A stretch of DNA of 20,309 nt from a virus: positions 1 through 20,309 of the IMG/VR virus record IMGVR_UViG_3300024520_002965, one strand, 5' to 3'. The notes under the pieces are model-generated. The model saw only the letters and a program-made list of their open reading frames with translations. It was not told the DNA's origin and did not search any database. Shown one piece after another: positions 2,260-12,626 of this stretch (position 1 is its first letter; every line of letters starts with the position of its first letter). A program made the position numbers and the translations under genes.

Positions 2260-2487
2260 ATGAATCTCACAGAACAACTGTTCCAACAGTTCTCAACGGC
2301 AGCCCACCAAGACAGGGGAGCCATTGAAGACATGCTTGCCAGCCAAGAGAGGCAAGACCCACCCAACAAGCACGCAGCTTGGTACCGCCGCCAGTACGAG
2401 AAGGTGTCTCGGTCCCTTCGGATTGCGCTCCAACGCATTGACGAGTTGGAGGCTGAACTCAAGGCCCTGAAGGAAGGTGAAGAATGA
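2260..2487 (+). CDS. Small coiled-coil protein of unknown function (75 aa)
   Basis: The start is ATG 2260 with AAAGGAG 8 nt upstream; an in-frame ATG at 2227 lacks such a site. The protein is charged. Its C-terminal third (RSLRIALQRIDELEAELKALKEGEE) has a heptad-like pattern and is probably a short coiled coil. The stop overlaps the start of the single-strand annealing gene (ATGA), so it is coupled to it. I do not recognise the family. As first gene of the recombination operon it could be an early regulator or an accessory of the annealing protein, but this is context only. Confidence 0.7.
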   Translation: MNLTEQLFQQFSTAAHQDRGAIEDMLASQERQDPPNKHAAWYRRQYEKVSRSLRIALQRIDELEAELKALKEGEE

Positions 2488-3143
2488 GTACCAAGATTGA
2501 CCTACCCTACCTGCGGAAGATGGGTGCCATCATCAAGCTGCAAGGCAAGGAGTACACCACCCACCAGGGGCTGCTCTATGTAGCCCACCAGCAGGGCATC
2601 ACCTCTATCACCACTGAACTGGTGTCGGAAGATCAGGACAAGCGCCGCGCTGTGTTCAAGTCAACAGCCACTGGAGAACGCGGCACCTTCACAGGCTGGG
2701 GAGATGCCGACCCCTCCAACGTGGGCAAGATGATCGCCAGCGCCTACCTCCGAATGGCGGAGACACGAAGCATCAGCCGCTCCCTCCGCCTGTACCTGGG
2801 CATAGGCATGACGGCCTATGATGAGTTGCCCGGGAAGGAACAGGAAGAACCAGCACCAGCACCAGCACCAGCACCAGCACCAGCGCCAGCGCCGGTTGAG
2901 CCCGAACCACAGAAGTGGAGCGACAAAGAGCGCAAGACGTTCATGGCTCGCATCGCACAGCCTGACATCAACTACCGGTACGAGGTCATCAAGAAGATGT
3001 GCGAGTTGATGGAGAGGCCACCACCCTCACTCATGGAGGAAAAGCAACGGCAAGCACTCATTGCTTTCTGTCTCACGGAAAGCGGACAACTGAAACTCTC
3101 CGATGCCCACGCGGTCATCGACTACCACCGAGGTAACCCATGA
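2484..3143 (+). CDS. ERF/Rad52-like single-strand DNA annealing protein (recombinase)
   Basis: 219 aa; the start ATG overlaps the upstream stop, with AAGGAAGG ahead of it. The N-terminal domain (residues 1-115) carries the pattern typical of phage annealing proteins: a beta-sheet stretch (HQGLLYVAHQQGITSITTEL..), then the GERGTFTGWGDADPSN segment and the helix AYLRMAETRSISRSLRLYLG, the usual 'A..RMAETRAi.RALR..+g'. Residues 123-137 are a Pro-Ala linker encoded by a CCAGCA microsatellite. A C-terminal helical domain (about 145-219) follows. The family pairs complementary single strands for phage recombination and repair. Co-location with SSB, Gp157 and RusA supports this. The exact subfamily (ERF or another Rad52-fold clade) cannot be settled by eye. 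Confidence 0.8.
   Translation: MSTKIDLPYLRKMGAIIKLQGKEYTTHQGLLYVAHQQGITSITTELVSEDQDKRRAVFKSTATGERGTFTGWGDADPSNVGKMIASAYLRMAETRSISRSLRLYLGIGMTAYDELPGKEQEEPAPAPAPAPAPAPAPVEPEPQKWSDKERKTFMARIAQPDINYRYEVIKKMCELMERPPPSLMEEKQRQALIAFCLTESGQLKLSDAHAVIDYHRGNP
2850..2891 (+). repeat. (CCAGCR)7 hexanucleotide microsatellite coding a Pro-Ala linker
   Basis: Five identical CCAGCA units followed by two CCAGCG units, in frame within the annealing-protein gene. They encode a rigid Pro-Ala linker between the annealing domain and the C-terminal domain. Such repeats are prone to copy-number change by slippage, which would alter linker length without breaking the frame. Confidence 0.85.
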
Positions 3144-4374: not shown

Positions 4375-4402
4375 GTAGCCCTTTCGGGCAACGGCTACTT
4401 TT
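4375..4402 (+). terminator. Rho-independent terminator candidate for the rightward operon
   Basis: GTAGCC (4375-4380) pairs with GGCTAC (4393-4398), followed directly by TTTT (4399-4402) on the plus strand. An alternative inner stem GCCC-TTTC-GGGC (4378-4389) is also possible. The right arm overlaps the stop codon of the convergent lipoprotein-like gene, so one structure could serve both operons, although only the plus direction has the T-run. Confidence 0.55.
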
Positions 4403-4601
4403 CCTCTGCGCCATCTTCTTTCTCTTCTTCCGCCGGCTCTTCAGCCTTCGGCTCCTCCTCTTGGGCTGGAGCCTCTTCAGCTACTGGAGCGGGGGGCGTT
4501 GGGTCTACGGTGCAAGAACCGAACTGGGTTCCAATGACAAGGCACCCGCCAGCTACGCCAGCAGTGACACCATGCTTCTTCATAAGTGCTTTGATATCCA
4601 T
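4395..4601 (-). CDS. Small acidic lipoprotein-like protein, last gene of the late operon (o-spanin candidate)
   Basis: 68 aa from ATG 4601 with GGAGG 5 nt upstream; a TTG 12 nt earlier is less likely. The N-terminus is MDIKALMKKH followed by a small-residue/hydrophobic stretch with two candidate lipid-attachment cysteines: AGGC (Cys20) and FGSC (Cys30). The rest is Pro/Ala/Glu-rich and very acidic (PTPPAPVAEEAPAQEEEPK...). It follows the endolysin gene. Short lipoproteins beside phage lysis genes are often outer-membrane spanins, but no partner inner-membrane spanin is evident, so an o-spanin role is only a candidate. A surface or exclusion lipoprotein is another option. Neither cysteine has a canonical Leu at -3. 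Confidence 0.65.
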   Translation of the reverse strand: MDIKALMKKHGVTAGVAGGCLVIGTQFGSCTVDPTPPAPVAEEAPAQEEEPKAEEPAEEEKEDGAEEK

Positions 4602-4616
4602 ACTTTCCTCCAACGC

Positions 4617-5399
4617 TCACGTAACATCGGTGGAGAGCAGAAGCGTGTAGGTAAAGACCTCATCACCGCTGGCCTTGCACACAGCCATGGCATGCTTCCA
4701 GTCTTCCTTCCTCCTGAAGACAGTGCACCCGGCACTCCATTTATTTACAGCGCGAGAATCAGTTGAAAACGAGCCCTCACCGCTAACCGGGTCCTCACCG
4801 CAGTGGTGGATGTTGATTCCGTGCCAGCCGGTATCCAGGGTAGAAGCACCGCGCCGGACAACCACCACACCGCCACGCTGACACAGCGTCTGGTACCTGC
4901 CTTGGTGTAGGTCAAAGGTGTAGACATCCCGGTACTGCCCAGGCTCAAGCACCGCTGCCCCCTCCACCCGAAGGGGATTCTCCAGCCAGTACGTGCCGGG
5001 GTCCGTGGTGCAAGCGTAGACCTTGTGCTGCCAGTGATCGTTCTCGAACCAGGCAATGTGGAACTCGTCATCAAACCGATTCTGAATCCCAGGCACAGCG
5101 CGAACACCCACCAAGTTCACCCGATCCTTGTAGACCTTGTGCCCCTTACGACGAACCGCCTTCAAGATGGCCGGTTCCTTGGACGCATCAGGCCTGTGAG
5201 GCAGAGCAAGCGCCTCCATGGTGCGAGGGCCAACGATTGCATCTACCTCCAAGCCTGAGGCTTCCTGGAAGATACGCACCGCTGACATCGAGGCAGGCCC
5301 ATAGATCCCATCTTCTGCCAGTGGGCCATAGCCAAGCTCATTGAGTTGTGACTGAATCTCTTTCACATTGGGACCATGAGCCCCAGGGTGGATGGTCAC
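4617..5399 (-). CDS. Endolysin: peptidoglycan-binding domain plus L,D-transpeptidase (YkuD)-like domain
   Basis: 260 aa from a GTG start that overlaps the holin-like gene's stop (GTGA). Residues 9-64 are a PG_binding_1 domain (GPNVKEIQSQLNELGYG.. EDGIYGPASMSAVRIFQ.. VDAIVGPRTMEAL). Residues about 88-250 form the catalytic part, with TTDPGTYWLENP, a beta-rich core, GINIHHCGE (H198/H199) and WSAGC (S222, C225). The His...S-x-G-C pair is that of cysteine L,D-transpeptidase-type enzymes, though the spacing between His and Ser-Gly-Cys (about 23 residues) is longer than the usual bacterial YkuD motif. No signal peptide is seen, so it needs a holin to reach the wall. It would cleave or remodel peptidoglycan at lysis. 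Catalysis is inferred from residues only. Confidence 0.75.
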   Translation of the reverse strand: MTIHPGAHGPNVKEIQSQLNELGYGPLAEDGIYGPASMSAVRIFQEASGLEVDAIVGPRTMEALALPHRPDASKEPAILKAVRRKGHKVYKDRVNLVGVRAVPGIQNRFDDEFHIAWFENDHWQHKVYACTTDPGTYWLENPLRVEGAAVLEPGQYRDVYTFDLHQGRYQTLCQRGGVVVVRRGASTLDTGWHGINIHHCGEDPVSGEGSFSTDSRAVNKWSAGCTVFRRKEDWKHAMAVCKASGDEVFTYTLLLSTDVT

Positions 5400-5572: not shown

Positions 5573-5845
5573 TCACTCGCAGACTGCGCCAGTGGCGGCA
5601 CAGATGGCAGCCAATGACTTGCTGTTCTCACTCACGTCAGCACGGAGCGCACGCTGCTCTACCATCAAGGTCTCCATCCTCTCAGCACCCACCGGGTGGG
5701 ACGGCATAGATGCGTGGTAGGTGACCTCTTGCTTGAGATGGTCCACCTCTTCGCTGGTGTTGTCCATGCGTGCGTACACACCACCGGCCCCGAAGATCAT
5801 AGCCGTGCCCCAAATGGCAATCTGGGAGAACGTGTTCAGATCCAT
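5573..5845 (-). CDS. Second small membrane protein of the lysis region (90 aa; TM plus coiled coil)
   Basis: ATG 5845, preceded by a G-run (GGGGGGTAGAG) that may serve as a ribosome site. A hydrophobic segment at residues about 6-24 (FSQIAIWGTAMIFGAGGVYA) is followed by a polar region with probable coiled coil (EEVDHLKQEV.., then METLMVEQRALRADVSENSKSLAAI) and a small Cys-containing end. The topology resembles single-pass holins, antiholins or inner-membrane spanins. The coiled-coil exterior and position upstream of the holin/endolysin pair make an i-spanin or antiholin role possible, but sequence alone does not decide. Confidence 0.65.
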   Translation of the reverse strand: MDLNTFSQIAIWGTAMIFGAGGVYARMDNTSEEVDHLKQEVTYHASMPSHPVGAERMETLMVEQRALRADVSENSKSLAAICAATGAVCE

Positions 5846-5862: not shown

Positions 5863-6159
5863 CTACTTCTTAGCCGCTTTCTTCTTGGGTGCTGCCTTCT
5901 TCTTGGCTGCCTTCTTCTCAGCACGACGCACACGAAGCCTCGCCAGAAACACGCCATGTGATGACTGCTTGGCTGATGTGGATACTACCCACTGAAGCAA
6001 CTCATCCAAGTCAAACTCAATAGGAACCCGCAGAACATCCCCCTCGTCTACAACCTCTCCTACTGTAAACGGAAAAGCACCCTGTCTTAGAAAGGCCCGC
6101 AGTGCAGCCAAGGCCGGCTTGCGAATGCCTTTGTCTGAGATGATCAGTTCATGGTCCAT
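5863..6159 (-). CDS. 98-aa protein with histone-H1-like Lys/Ala tail
   Basis: AGGAG 7 nt before ATG 6159. Residues 1-78 are a compact mixed domain (ISDKGIRKPALAALRAFLRQ, then VPIEFDLDELLQWVVS). The end (residues 80-98: AEKKAAKKKAAPKKKAAKK) is a run of AAKK-type units as in histone H1 and bacterial HU/H1-like tails. Such tails bind DNA or RNA nonspecifically through charge. Its place in the late operon between virion and lysis genes suggests a virion DNA-associated or condensing role, or an action on host nucleic acid, but the N-terminal domain is not recognised. The tail-coding DNA is a short imperfect repeat. Confidence 0.75.
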   Translation of the reverse strand: MDHELIISDKGIRKPALAALRAFLRQGAFPFTVGEVVDEGDVLRVPIEFDLDELLQWVVSTSAKQSSHGVFLARLRVRRAEKKAAKKKAAPKKKAAKK

Positions 6160-7571: not shown

Positions 7572-10500
7572 CTATTGACCCATTGCTTGGAGTTCTTGCT
7601 GCATAGCGTATCTCATTTGTACCAGTGCCTGTAGTTCCCCTGTAACCTTCATCGGGGTGGAAAGGTTGGAGGCATACGCCCACCAACTACCATCCCCGTG
7701 TCTCTTCATCTCCACATCTTCTGCGATTATACCAGCCTTGATCATATCGGTGGTGTACTCGCGGATGTTGCGGTCTATACCAATAGAGATGGCGACGGCC
7801 TTGAAGAAGTGCCACTTGAGTAGCCCCCCCTTGTCTTCAATGCGGTATTGGGTGGGCACCCCATCCTCATCAAAGGTGGGTTCACCTGGCTTCATCTTCT
7901 TTCTGGGGACAGCCTTGATGTTGAACCAATCCTGAGAGATCTCCCACAAACCAACCGACTTGAGGAACTGCACATAGCGTGCATCAAACACAGGACCGGG
8001 ACCCTCCCGTCTTTCCAGAAGCTCCTTCTTGTCTTTGTAATACGACAGAACGGGATGCTGAATGAAGTCATCAGCAAGGTACTCAGCCAATATGGCATCG
8101 CCATACCCTGACCCGAACACTATGGCCATCGCATTCACCAGGGTTCCAAACCCCTCGATGGCTGGCACCTGTGGCCCAAAGTGCCCGGTCCATACGCGGT
8201 CCCACTCCTCTCCGTAGAAACCCCACAGCCTGCTGCGCTGGTAGTCGTCCTCATACAGCCATGTGCCAGAGGCCTTCTGCTGCTGGTGAGATGTCACCAC
8301 CATTCTTCTCAGGTTTCTCACCGCCCCCGGATCCCGCACAAACGCCTTGGCTATTTCCACGATGTTCATCATCTGAAAGGCATAGAACAATACAAACTGT
8401 CCCACGTTTTTGCGAGTCTTTGGGTCGATGGCTCCGTAGTCAAGCAGTGCGTTGCGTGCGAGCTTAGCTGAGATCTCCGGTGTCTCTCCACGGGAGAGCG
8501 CTTCCCGAAACACAGCCTCGCGGAAAGCCATGTCTGCTTCCTCTGTCCAGCGGTTCCAGATGTTCTTGTGAAACGGATCCAGCCACCTGAGTGCGCTTCT
8601 CGTAGAACCCGCCGGCATGAAGTCGGGCTTCATCTTCGCAGCGCGGTACACATCCTTGATGACGTTGTCTCCCAACTGAAAGGTCACCTGGCTAAAGCGG
8701 ATGTTGTGCTTGTCCATCAGCTTGGACACTTCATCCCTGGTGTATTTGCGCCCTGCCTTGGTAACAATCACCACATCGCCTGGGTCTGCCCAGTATCTCT
8801 GCTGCAAGTAGGTGGACAGTTTGCGTGCACCGGGCACATTCGCCTCTTCAGCCACAGAAGCCAGCCGCTTTACCGACGCATCTGGAATGGCCTTTACGGC
8901 TGCCCATACATAGGAAGGAGAAGTGATCGCCACAATGAGGGGGGCGGTGACATTGTTCTGCCCGATGAAGCGCATGTTGGGAAGAGGAACACCACCCAGG
9001 AAACCACTGATGGTACCCCTGCGGATCGTGTCGATAGCCAGCCACAGATAGCCGCTAATCGCCTCGTCCAGTGGCTTGTCACGCAGGTTCAAAGCCTCCA
9101 GCCCCTCCCTCAGTTTCCCGCTGAAGGTGGCCTTCTTTACCGACTCATAAAGACCTTTGGACTGAGGAGTAAGAAAGATGCCCCGACCACCACTCATTCC
9201 CACAAGAGATGGGAAGACGCTGTAGTCGAACTGCTTCTTGCCGGTGACGCTAATCCCTATGGAGCCCAGCATCCCCATGTACCGATCCACATTCATGCTG
9301 GTGAGGGATTGGAAGACAGCCTCTGATACCTGTTGGGCGTATTGGGTACGTGCCGCTTCAAAGCCGTCCGACCCCTTGGACAGCCCACGCGCCTCCAACA
9401 TCTTGTCTATCTCTGAAAGGATGTTGTCAGAGCGGAGAATGACCTTGGTGACGCGGTCTTGGTTGGTGATGGACTCGTACAACCTGGCCTGCACCGACTG
9501 TCCGTTGACAGTTCCCTTTTCCACAATCTCACCCAGGGCCTGCTCTGCTACTTCCTTGCGGTTGGCTGGGGTGAGGGAGGCAGCGTGCTTTGAGATGGCG
9601 TCAGCCACAGACTCAGAAACCCCCTCGGCCACAATCGCTTCTGACACCTTTCCCTGCTCTCCTACGCTACGCCCGAAACCAATGAGCAACTCTGGGTAGG
9701 TCTGCGCCAGCTTCTGTTCGGCTTCTCCCAGCTTGGTCTTTCGGAACTTATCCATCGCCCAGACAGCAGCAGCAGCCATGGGCTCGTCAACCCCACCACC
9801 ACGCAGCGTGCGCTTTCCAAGCCCGCGACCCACAAGTTCAGGGTTCATGCCGCGAGCAAACTCAATGGCCTTCAAGACATTCTCAGCATCAAGGGTGTCT
9901 ATGCCCGCCTCTCTCAGCATGCTGGGAAAGGTGCTTGGTGCGTTCTTCTCAATGTTGAAAGCATCACCAAAGAAGTTCTTAACAATGGAGGTCAGCGCAT
10001 CAGCCGCATCCTCCAGCGGAGGCAGTGGAGTGTTGGTCTCCTTTGCTATGCGCCGGGTGAGAGCAAGGTCCTCACTCAGCAGGTCCTGCATCAGCATGTT
10101 CCATGCTTGCTCTGGAGAGTCTGCCTCCTCACCGTACTTGATGACCTTCCTTGTGAACTCAGCGGGCAACTCCACCACCATCTCTTGAAGCTCGCGAATC
10201 CAGGTATCCAACTCAATCGAGGTTCTTCCTGTCGTCTTGATGTTCTTTGCGGGAGGAGGAAACCCCTCATTGAGTAGGGCCTGAACCCCACGCCTCAATG
10301 TCCCCATGTTTCTGAACACGGTAAGCCGGCGTTGTACGGGCTCAAGAGAGCGCTCGGCAGCCGCCCCGGTGTACCGCAAGCGCACAGAACTTTTGATGGC
10401 CTGCATCCAGGTGTCTGCCGCCACAATGCCGTGCACCCAAGCATAGTCCTCTTGGCTCAGAGGCTTCGCTTTCTTCAGGTCTTGGTAGATCCGAAAGATG

Positions 10501-12626
10501 CGGGAGTTCTTGCCAATCGTAGCTGCTGGCATCTCCCTTCTTATGGCTGCCATCACCTGCTTCGGGCGCAGAAACCGCTGCTTGTCTCCCACCTGCGCGG
10601 TCTTGGTAATCTCCTTTATCTTTGAGTTGACCGCATCCCCCACCTCTGCCACCGCTTTCTTGGTGACAATGACGTAGTCGGTGACGCGAACCCAGTCGTT
10701 GGGAAGCACGTTGGCAAAGTGCTCCTTGAGCCTTCCCTTTGCAAGAGTCTTCACCACCTCCTCAGCGATGTCATCAGCCGCCACACCGATGGCCTCTGCC
10801 TTCCGTACCTGCTGGATGATCTCCTTACCAAGCAGGGTGTCCCCGAAGCGCAACACCCGATCTGTGTCCTTCGCTCCCTTTGCCACCTTGTCTGAAGCCT
10901 TTGCGACCCGGGCTGCCATTTCATAGATGGTCTCAAGCTCACCGATCATCTTTCCAGCAAGCGAGTCGGTGGGGAACTTGGCTCCCTTTCCTGCTCTAAT
11001 GGCTGACGCGACATCACCCGCCATCATCTCAGCAACCTGGCTGGGAACCGTTGCCTCCTCCAACACGAGAGCACCGCGAGCCTCCAACCCAAGCCCCTTG
11101 CTTACAGCCTCCACCTCTCTCTTTAGGATCTGTTGAGTGGCTGCCTTTACAGGCTCTGCCATGGTGTTGAAGACCTTGGCTACCTGGGGCAGATCAGCCC
11201 TTGCCGCTATGGAGCCGCCAGCAGAAAGTGCGCCCTTTACCGCCGGCTTTAGTACAGGGTATGGCGTGACAGGAAGAGGCAACTCTCCCAACGTTCCTGC
11301 TACCCAGGGTATCCATTCGTACCCAGTTCCCTGGTAAAGCCTTTGGGTGGCTTGAAGTCTGGCGGCATCATCACCCAGACCGTTTCCCAGCGCTACGGAA
11401 ATAATGATGTCTCTCTGCCAGCTACCTGTATTTGATTCTTCTCCCCTTCCTGCATGCCAAGGCGCGTCATCCGGTTTTTTTAGCGTTCGAGTAGCCGCCA
11501 TTGCTGTGGGAGCAAAGCCCGAAAGAGCAGCGGCATAGTTAGACAGGCTTTTTTCTCCAGACTGTAGACCTTGAAGAGCCTCCTCCTGGATTTGATAGAG
11601 CCTGTAGTTGATGTCTTCTGTGTCAAGAGGGTTGCCTTGCTCGTCCACCTCAAAGCTGATGGCATCCATGGCTGTCTTGGTAACAGGCCGAAACAATGAC
11701 ACCAGATCACGCATTCCGGCAGCAAGGGGGGTCTCGTAGGGAATGCCCTCTGAACTCTCGTTTACCAACGCCCATCGCGCCAACTGCTTGGCGTAGGAAC
11801 TCATGCTGCGCTGTGGCTTGTCCTCTCCTGGGATGTCAACGTCCTTGAAGGCAAGGTCGCGCCAGTCCAGGTACATCTCGTCAGCCAGATCGCGGATCTC
11901 TTCGTCCTGCTCCCTCTTCTTTGCGGTGGCTTCGGGGCTGACCGGCTCAACGCCTGGTTGATTGAAGTACAGCCTACGCGCCTCTGCCCTGAAATGCTGT
12001 CTCTTGGTGACCAACAGGTCCCTTGCGGCCCGCTCGTAGTAGTTCCGGTACACCGCCTGCCGGTCTTGCCCAGGGTTTTCCCTAAGAGCCGCCTGTGCTT
12101 GCTGCTTGGCGATTGCTCGCAGCGCGTTCTCTTCTTTCTGAAGGATTTGGTCTCGTTCCGTCTTCGCCTTCTTCATTGCCTCCGCGTCCTGTGGGGACAC
12201 CAGAGGTTGGGGCATGAGGGCGGCTACGAGTGCTTCAGATAGTGGCGATGTCTCCAACACACCAGGAGTAGGCGCTTCGATTCTTTTCCCTCTGGAGGTT
12301 CGAGGTGCCTCCATGACTTCTCTGGCAGCCGCAACACCTGCTTGTCTGGCTTGTGGTCCTGAAGCCTCAGGGGGCTGATCCATTGAAACGCTTCGAGCCG
12401 CCCCAGAAAAGGATCGCCCCATTGCTTCTTCACTGACGGGGCGTCGTTGGTTTGCCGACAAGTCACCCGGGTCTGCTGGTGGAACCGTACCAGTGGCTTC
12501 CATTCGTCTAAGAAGCTGTTCATAGGCAGCCTCAGCAGCTTCGGGACCCCACTGCTGTGCTTCGGATCGAACAAAGTCCGCCTCCAAAGGTGGCAGGTTG
12601 GCGAGTTGTTCCTCAGATACTGGCAC
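7572..12626 (-). CDS. Giant internal virion / DNA ejection protein (1684 aa, T7 gp16-position)
   Basis: The start is GTG 12624-12626 with AAGGAAG 4 nt upstream, inside the end of the 729-aa gene (14-nt overlap). It is almost wholly helical and charged, with a low-complexity N-terminal 150 residues, several hydrophobic patches in the C-terminal half (about residues 1210-1290) and a segment near residues 1390-1425 (ARNALLDYGAIDPKTRKNVG then FVLFYAFQMMN). That segment matches a motif I know from very large phage virion proteins ('a+.alfDY..l...E+...r.viPFy.w...n'). Size and order after 265- and 729-aa genes parallel T7 gp14-15-16 (196, 747 and 1318 aa), the proteins ejected to form the periplasmic DNA channel. 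I see no lytic transglycosylase motif at its N-terminus, unlike T7 gp16. Role inferred. Confidence 0.8.
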   Translation of the reverse strand: MPVSEEQLANLPPLEADFVRSEAQQWGPEAAEAAYEQLLRRMEATGTVPPADPGDLSANQRRPVSEEAMGRSFSGAARSVSMDQPPEASGPQARQAGVAAAREVMEAPRTSRGKRIEAPTPGVLETSPLSEALVAALMPQPLVSPQDAEAMKKAKTERDQILQKEENALRAIAKQQAQAALRENPGQDRQAVYRNYYERAARDLLVTKRQHFRAEARRLYFNQPGVEPVSPEATAKKREQDEEIRDLADEMYLDWRDLAFKDVDIPGEDKPQRSMSSYAKQLARWALVNESSEGIPYETPLAAGMRDLVSLFRPVTKTAMDAISFEVDEQGNPLDTEDINYRLYQIQEEALQGLQSGEKSLSNYAAALSGFAPTAMAATRTLKKPDDAPWHAGRGEESNTGSWQRDIIISVALGNGLGDDAARLQATQRLYQGTGYEWIPWVAGTLGELPLPVTPYPVLKPAVKGALSAGGSIAARADLPQVAKVFNTMAEPVKAATQQILKREVEAVSKGLGLEARGALVLEEATVPSQVAEMMAGDVASAIRAGKGAKFPTDSLAGKMIGELETIYEMAARVAKASDKVAKGAKDTDRVLRFGDTLLGKEIIQQVRKAEAIGVAADDIAEEVVKTLAKGRLKEHFANVLPNDWVRVTDYVIVTKKAVAEVGDAVNSKIKEITKTAQVGDKQRFLRPKQVMAAIRREMPAATIGKNSRIFRIYQDLKKAKPLSQEDYAWVHGIVAADTWMQAIKSSVRLRYTGAAAERSLEPVQRRLTVFRNMGTLRRGVQALLNEGFPPPAKNIKTTGRTSIELDTWIRELQEMVVELPAEFTRKVIKYGEEADSPEQAWNMLMQDLLSEDLALTRRIAKETNTPLPPLEDAADALTSIVKNFFGDAFNIEKNAPSTFPSMLREAGIDTLDAENVLKAIEFARGMNPELVGRGLGKRTLRGGGVDEPMAAAAVWAMDKFRKTKLGEAEQKLAQTYPELLIGFGRSVGEQGKVSEAIVAEGVSESVADAISKHAASLTPANRKEVAEQALGEIVEKGTVNGQSVQARLYESITNQDRVTKVILRSDNILSEIDKMLEARGLSKGSDGFEAARTQYAQQVSEAVFQSLTSMNVDRYMGMLGSIGISVTGKKQFDYSVFPSLVGMSGGRGIFLTPQSKGLYESVKKATFSGKLREGLEALNLRDKPLDEAISGYLWLAIDTIRRGTISGFLGGVPLPNMRFIGQNNVTAPLIVAITSPSYVWAAVKAIPDASVKRLASVAEEANVPGARKLSTYLQQRYWADPGDVVIVTKAGRKYTRDEVSKLMDKHNIRFSQVTFQLGDNVIKDVYRAAKMKPDFMPAGSTRSALRWLDPFHKNIWNRWTEEADMAFREAVFREALSRGETPEISAKLARNALLDYGAIDPKTRKNVGQFVLFYAFQMMNIVEIAKAFVRDPGAVRNLRRMVVTSHQQQKASGTWLYEDDYQRSRLWGFYGEEWDRVWTGHFGPQVPAIEGFGTLVNAMAIVFGSGYGDAILAEYLADDFIQHPVLSYYKDKKELLERREGPGPVFDARYVQFLKSVGLWEISQDWFNIKAVPRKKMKPGEPTFDEDGVPTQYRIEDKGGLLKWHFFKAVAISIGIDRNIREYTTDMIKAGIIAEDVEMKRHGDGSWWAYASNLSTPMKVTGELQALVQMRYAMQQELQAMGQ

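Follow-up and report, generated by a model that had tools for sequence, protein, structure and literature searches.

A viral PG_binding_1 protein with a predicted YkuD-like cysteine centre as a candidate L,D-peptidase endolysin of a widespread phage family

The 20,309-base stretch of viral DNA analysed here, which we call the window, encodes on its minus strand a protein that is most likely a cysteine L,D-peptidase endolysin. We assign a probability of about 0.7 to the fuller reading, in which a tailed-phage endolysin joins a PG_binding_1 module to an L,D-peptidase domain of the YkuD fold and cuts stem peptides or their cross-links. A preliminary description of this DNA had pointed to the pairing of a binding module with a His...Ser-Ala-Gly-Cys centre. 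That pairing is real, and the interpretation built on it is supported as a whole, apart from two corrections that concern H199 and the spacing and insert of the catalytic centre. Judged from gene order and domain content, a role as endolysin is favoured because a holin-like gene overlaps the candidate, relatives carry fusions to lysozyme or Amidase_2 domains, and common lysin families are absent from most of the domain's carriers that were searched. The features under discussion are collected in Table 1.

Table 1. Coordinates of the endolysin candidate, its parts and its neighbours in the window
Feature	Position	Strand	Basis or remarks
Endolysin candidate, 260 aa	4617..5399	-	PG_binding_1 plus YkuD-like catalytic domain; ORF, Pfam, PHROGs, predicted structure
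PG_binding_1, aa 9-64	5208..5375	-	Pfam PF01471, E 2.2e-17
YkuD-like catalytic domain (phrog_3000), aa 76-260	4620..5174	-	phrog_3000, E 1.5e-18; AlphaFold2; VIA-align
H198, putative catalytic general base	4806..4808	-	110/110 rows; aligns with conserved His of YkuD profiles
S222 of the SxGC motif	4734..4736	-	110/110 aligned rows
C225, putative nucleophile	4725..4727	-	110/110 rows; aligns with conserved Cys of YkuD profiles
Insert of 9-11 aa in the His-Cys loop, about aa 202-212	4764..4796	-	Alignment gaps, spacing table
Holin-like protein, 57 aa	5396..5569	-	One N-terminal hydrophobic segment plus charged tail
90-aa protein, weakly hydrophobic N-terminal segment plus HPVG motif	5573..5845	-	Upstream of the holin-like gene
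Lipoprotein-like protein	4395..4601	-	MDIKALM start (by eye), hydrophobic segment, Cys, Pro/acid-rich tail

The open reading frame runs from a GTG start at 5399 to a stop at 4617, the extent first proposed for the gene, and Pfam recovered the PG_binding_1 module that had been claimed for it. This module also gives a PG_binding_3 match (residues 40 to 82, E = 8.3e-6) and aligns with the N-terminal domain of SleB at a VIA-align Z of 14.0. All six NCBIfam matches fall inside residues 2 to 76, so that the catalytic domain receives no name, and Pfam matched nothing beyond the binding module, with no PF03734 match above the cut-off. The C-terminal domain of about 185 residues, which holds H198, S222 and C225, is covered by two PHROGs, namely phrog_3000 (“unknown function,” residues 90 to 244) and phrog_33083 (“endolysin,” residues 106 to 244, E = 3.8e-10); further PHROGs endolysin families match the binding module. 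PG_binding_1 is present in only 7 of the 31 aligned members, and it is therefore the C-terminal domain that defines the family.

Structure prediction, which the preliminary description had named as its own test, gave a YkuD-type fold. AlphaFold2 modelled the domain alone from 110 sequences with a mean pLDDT of 94.4 and a pTM of 0.90, and the whole protein from 31 sequences with a mean pLDDT of 86.8. The fold assignment rests on VIA-align, applied to the domain as a second look at 998 chains ranked by Foldseek, with 45 PDB entries listed. Rows 1 to 42 of these 45 reach Z scores of 6.4 to 9.8, and rows 43 to 45 stay at or below 2.3, the score of the first unrelated chain; a Z below 8 can reflect a merely common arrangement, and 12 of the 45 listed rows reach 8. 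By title or from the general literature we take rows 1 to 42 to be L,D-transpeptidases or L,D-carboxypeptidases, except for 4xxt, whose title differs. Csd6 (Z 9.8, rmsd 3.4, 121 residues aligned) and Pgp2 (Z 9.8, rmsd 3.6, 127 residues aligned) stand at the top, and the whole-protein model finds the same structural neighbours for its catalytic region. With Z scores of up to 9.8, the predicted fold supports the L,D-transpeptidase-like catalytic domain originally suggested. Neither VanW-type nor CHAP-type folds appear among the structures listed, an absence that does not exclude them.

Other comparisons point to a distant relationship with YkuD. When only the domain was submitted, Foldseek returned nothing at E of 0.001 or below (best E 0.33, unrelated), and the best 50 matches listed are unrelated chains with no L,D-transpeptidase among them. 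With the whole protein, Foldseek did rank the L,D-transpeptidase structures 4lpq (1.7e-6) and YcbB (8.9e-6) high, at rmsd values of 12.7 and 16.3; we do not rely on these ranks because the binding module is shared and the superposition is bad. Searching PDB sequences with the profile of the family brought up no L,D-transpeptidase. In a single-sequence search nearly all matches listed covered the N-terminal binding part, and none of those listed aligned to the catalytic domain of a YkuD protein. PF03734 exceeded its cut-off in none of the 31 members scanned, which yielded one weak match (E = 0.031). Profile-profile comparison gave a weak signal that was nonetheless specific. Against 14 YkuD sequences (alignment A4, a subset chosen before any comparison to exclude long-loop forms), hhalign aligned the H...SxGC stretch over 47 columns (E = 0.0004, probability 35%) with a score of 29.8; the best of 100 column-shuffled controls scored 22.1, and the reversed control scored 12.4. 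A broader set (A3, 30 of 37 YkuD loci, drawn up without L200, L211 and L225 and, by the author's choice, without L204, L214, L222 and L228) gave an E of 0.0018, a probability of 15% and a score of 25.0, versus 18.7 at most in 100 shuffles and 20.5 reversed. We read the domain as probably a remote member of the YkuD-fold enzymes, one that escapes the curated models tried here.

The residues of the proposed centre lie where they had been placed (H198, H199, S222, A223, G224 and C225), and most of them are invariant. H198, S222 and C225 are identical throughout 33 distinct proteins, the window protein included, and the invariant positions of the 110-row alignment (A2) include R100, D111, T131, H165, Q174, R183, N196, H198, S222, A223, G224 and C225. 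The second histidine of the centre did not hold up in the same way: position 199 is variable in A2, with R in 73 and H in 17 of the 110 rows, which leaves H198 alone as the conserved histidine. The SAGC motif occurs in 185 of 185 distinct relatives, a count that is partly circular because two profile scans used a SAGC pattern. The first scan of viral contigs used six patterns, none of them with SAGC; DPGTYWLE was one of the six, and its presence in 33 of 33 proteins is conserved by construction (DPGTYWL(E) served as a scan pattern in the first scan and in both profile scans). The exact pattern WHGINIHH occurs in the window protein only among the 33. The histidine and SAGC are kept in the phages ACA1, crAss002 and Rudgehvirus jaberico, and SJC03 has SLGC; the family pattern is therefore SxGC, as in YkuD enzymes.

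The long His-to-Cys spacing and the extra insert, the other feature singled out at the start, do exist in the window protein, where the spacing is 27, but they are private to it. By script, 182 of 185 distinct relatives have a spacing of 16 to 20; among the other three, L022 is a regex artefact (19 in another table), and L125 and L086 are nonmatches that measure 16 and 18 by eye. YkuD-type enzymes have a spacing of about 16 to 20 as well. In the 33-sequence alignment the remaining rows have a gap at the insert (11 columns for L002 and L003, 9 for most), and both AlphaFold2 models show the insert as a low-confidence loop. Because the relatives keep to 16 to 20, we regard the insert as private to the window protein and not as a mark of the family.

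The family extends well beyond the window. The first scan of viral contigs yielded 41 loci, which reduce to 33 distinct proteins with the window protein included and with the partial L041 and identical copies removed; alignment A1 omits L029, the partial L041 and L011, which has letters X. In contigs that represent each species by a single genome, a profile scan confirmed 119 stretches; a profile scan of viral contigs confirmed at least 553, and 80 were kept from each. A total of 193 stretches passed filters on letters X, length and start, and clustering at 78% identity reduced them to 109, or 110 with the window, which form A2. A match was found in 18 of 295 genomes from the class of one carrier (the carrier counted) and in none of 14 control genomes. 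In a phage collection, the whole protein matched 354 records, where the matches listed from H25 on are N-terminal only (at most residues 3 to 152), and the catalytic domain alone matched 24 records, a few of which are RefSeq duplicates of a phage already counted. These 24 comprise crAss-like phages, large Bacteroides phages, the Pseudoalteromonas phages ACA1, ACA2 and proACA1-A, and uncultured ones. Two of the records are unannotated; the annotations of the others give hypothetical proteins and one “peptidoglycan-binding domain 1 protein,” and name an enzyme in none.

Fusions in bacterial relatives link the domain to known lysins. Among 10 bacterial relatives scanned by Pfam, partly picked for length, Phage_lysozyme precedes the domain in L111 (Desulfonema magnum) and Amidase_2 precedes it in L094, L116 and L120; L054 has PG_binding_1 below the cut-off, and the other five have no Pfam match or matches of E 0.1 or worse only. 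The same arrangement is seen in phrog_33083, with a lysozyme match at the start and a phrog_3000-type domain near the end.

The gene order in the window resembles a lysis cassette. On the minus strand the 90-residue protein is followed by the holin-like gene, the endolysin candidate and the lipoprotein-like gene, and the holin-like stop and the candidate's start share GTGA, a 4-nucleotide overlap. The lipoprotein-like protein is a possible outer-membrane spanin candidate. The names holin and spanin rest on architecture, since no named holin or spanin family matched either protein: the holin-like protein has no significant PHROG (best E 0.049), and the lipoprotein-like protein has no Pfam or PHROG family match. 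The 90-residue protein likewise has no PHROG match (best Pfam E 0.083); by eye, proteins with the HPVG motif also lie beside the lysin in L031, L033 and L132. A similar small membrane protein ends at the lysin start in L001 to L003, with a protein of the MDIKALM... type downstream (L001 and L002 look identical in their cassette genes). L124 and L125 have the downstream lipoprotein-like neighbour only, and the close relatives L123 and L128 have neither neighbour by the criteria applied. Of 90 viral loci, 52 have a small hydrophobic ORF abutting the lysin and 38 have none in this position; for other ORFs of at least 150 residues the figure is 56 of 346. A looser adjacency tally (54 of 95 upstream, 55 of 95 downstream) was set aside, as it had no control and counted spurious ORFs.

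Three further proteins of the window deserve mention in their own right. Just upstream of the lysis genes, positions 5863 to 6159 (minus strand) encode a 98-residue protein with a Lys/Ala-rich, histone-H1-like C-terminal tail and no Pfam or PHROG match. A 1,684-residue late protein at 7572 to 12626 (minus strand), without a PHROG match, is possibly an internal virion or tape-measure-like protein. The protein at 2484 to 3143 (plus strand) has a long PAPAPAP repeat tract and is encoded opposite the late genes.

We evaluated whether carriers of the domain encode another lysin in 15 records of our choosing, namely, 11 viral contigs of 61 to 175 kb (completeness not given) and the records of ACA1, crAss002, SJC03 and Rudgehvirus jaberico, all four of them labelled complete. 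All 15 contain phrog_3000. Amidase_2, Phage_lysozyme, Peptidase_M15_4, Peptidase_M15_3 and CHAP were each found in none of the 15, and an SLT domain was found in 3. GH19 likewise gave no match in the 15, but with a silent control this search carries no information. Overall, 12 of the 15 have no match to the seven lysin families searched, namely these six and GH19. In the record of L004 (G026:108386-109221), the SLT domain adjoins the YkuD-like lysin gene on the opposite strand.

These observations are consistent with the following mechanism. The small membrane protein encoded just upstream would open the inner membrane first, after which the PG_binding_1 module would dock on peptidoglycan. With C225 as the nucleophile, H198 as the base and the support of the SxGC backbone, the enzyme would attack the third stem residue, which is meso-DAP in most Gram-negatives, at the carbonyl of its L-centre. 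A thioester would form and be resolved by water, and the domain would thus act as an L,D-peptidase that cuts stem peptides and cross-links and does not make them. Against this reading, most YkuD enzymes that are known build the wall or trim it; in a phage lysin, hydrolysis would be the simplest activity for such a fold. The cysteine of YkuD enzymes is acylated by meropenem. We infer that the neighbour is probably a holin, the outcome probably cell lysis, and the reaction probably hydrolysis over transpeptidation; the bond cut may be that of a 3-3 or of a 4-3 cross-link. YkuD enzymes are described as forming a thioester between the cysteine and the third stem residue, which is passed to an amine in transpeptidation or to water (PMC12729407). 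In one study, cross-linked dimers were cut by LdtCd2 and by LdtCd3, but LdtCd1 showed no endopeptidase activity (PMC10792238).

The strongest competing explanation, to which we give somewhat less than one chance in five, is that the protein modifies the wall, trimming or capping stems as an L,D-carboxypeptidase or a Tlde1a-like exchange transpeptidase, and that another protein lyses the cell. Its nearest structures, Csd6 and Pgp2, are cell-shape enzymes, and the YkuD-fold L,D-carboxypeptidases Csd6, Pgp2 and Bd1075 are together among the best matches (Z 8.7 to 9.8 over 121 to 129 residues). We take Pgp2 and Bd1075 to be L,D-carboxypeptidases. All three are bacterial and not phage proteins, however, with 13 to 16% identity to the domain over aligned residues. 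L,D-carboxypeptidase activity is described for Csd6 (PMC6403190), and the T6SS effector Tlde1a, in which an L,D-transpeptidase fold is used against the wall of another cell, shows that such activity can be toxic (PMC9638812). Tlde1a differs in its T6SS delivery and in combining carboxypeptidase and exchange activity, and it is absent among the structural matches listed. In crAss002 the family gene has an exonuclease and the terminase nearby and is not adjacent to any annotated holin, which fits a wall-modifying role; in Rudgehvirus jaberico, too, an exonuclease is nearby and no holin is annotated beside the gene. The crAss002 annotation names a holin and no endolysin. The holin-like neighbour and lipoprotein-like gene of the window, the lysozyme and amidase fusions of relatives and the 12 carriers without another lysin among the families searched argue against wall modification, and the cutting of L,D cross-links is favoured over it.

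A tail or virion-associated protein is an unlikely alternative whose appeal comes from gene order in other phages. The family member of the cultured Pseudoalteromonas phage ACA1 is gp35 (phrog_3000, E = 1.2e-63), encoded between the tail tube and tail assembly chaperone genes and away from the holins, and the Moritella gene adjoins sheath, tube and tape-measure genes, an order that by eye recurs in Pseudoalteromonas luteoviolacea. The lysis genes of P2-like phages, however, are usually among the tail genes (PMC10612066), and the window copy overlaps a holin-like gene. The ACA authors describe the endolysin as “as yet unidentified” in the same source, a point in favour of the endolysin reading for gp35. 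Pfam found no lysin domain in the 10 of 52 annotated ACA1 proteins scanned, gp35 included.

Least probable of all is that the catalytic domain is a second or accessory module and that a lysin encoded elsewhere does the lysis, since the record of the window (G000, 20,309 bases, completeness not stated), the SLT gene in 3 of 15 relatives and the attachment to another lysin domain in L111, L116, L120 and L094 would allow it, but an invariant His/Ser/Cys centre is unexpected in a binding module, 12 of 15 records lack the searched lysin families and PG_binding_1 is often missing from the protein (24 of 31 members).

The endolysin candidate differs from the known systems to which it is closest. YkuD L,D-transpeptidases (PF03734; Ldtfm, LdtMt2 and YcbB) share the fold, with VIA-align Z scores of 6.4 to 9.2 for entries so titled, and have the histidine and SxGC in the same order. 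In contrast to PF03734, the phrog_3000 domain has its own conserved R100, D111, T131, H165, Q174 and R183, and it carries SAGC where SHGC is commoner in PF03734, a few matches of which also have SAGC. The longest structural alignment (150 residues, Z 8.2) is with 8qzg, a Gluconobacter oxydans 1,3-L,D-transpeptidase that differs in being a bacterial cross-linking enzyme with 10% identity; its catalytic domain is described as distantly related to YkuD (PMC10727944). Among phage families, phrog_3000 is the domain of the window protein and has no assigned function, and phrog_33083 has the domain behind a lysozyme; the two descriptions give no catalytic type.

YkuD domains are not new to phages. 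PhaLP contains a YkuD cluster with 10 occurrences among phage lytic proteins (PMC8310338), defined by PF03734, cd16913 or PF10908, whereas the phrog_3000 family shows a weak PF03734 match at most and no PF10908 match in Pfam-A. A domain table of phage endolysins has a YkuD row of 3 (PMC5017753), and YkuD is described in one gut phage protein (PMC13284279). A literature search over titles and abstract openings returned no report that calls the phrog_3000 family an endolysin. The L,D-transpeptidase mention in a phi29 review concerns an Ig-like domain and not a phrog_3000-type enzyme. Because phage YkuD domains are known but rare and the tested Pfam models miss this one, we count the large phrog_3000 subfamily as a new form of a domain type already recorded in phages.

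If the endolysin reading is true, a widespread phage family of “unknown function” (at least 553 viral stretches and 24 phage records) gains a catalytic type, the gap reported by the ACA phage authors is filled, an endolysin that hydrolyses L,D bonds reverses the better-known role of the YkuD fold, and the range of bonds cut by lysins is widened. Enzymes of the phrog_3000 type may be the missing lysis enzyme of other phages. A broader proposal, for which the odds fall slightly short of even, is that phrog_3000 constitutes a large overlooked class of Gram-negative phage endolysins (crAss-like, P2-like and metagenomic) that lyse alone as cysteine L,D-endopeptidases and include the missing endolysin of ACA1, ACA2 and crAss002-like phages.

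Two features of other loci stand apart from the window. In Bacteroidota, similar small proteins (by eye) lie upstream of the lysin domain in L071:3511-9981 and L108:3292-8588, possibly an undescribed type of provirus; of five upstream proteins of L071 scanned against PHROGs, four had no match and the fifth a weak one. Two family ORFs lie close together in each of L044, L071, L076, L085, L086, L091 and L118, and at least one copy in L044, L071, L076 and L086 has, by eye, a hydrophobic C-terminal segment.
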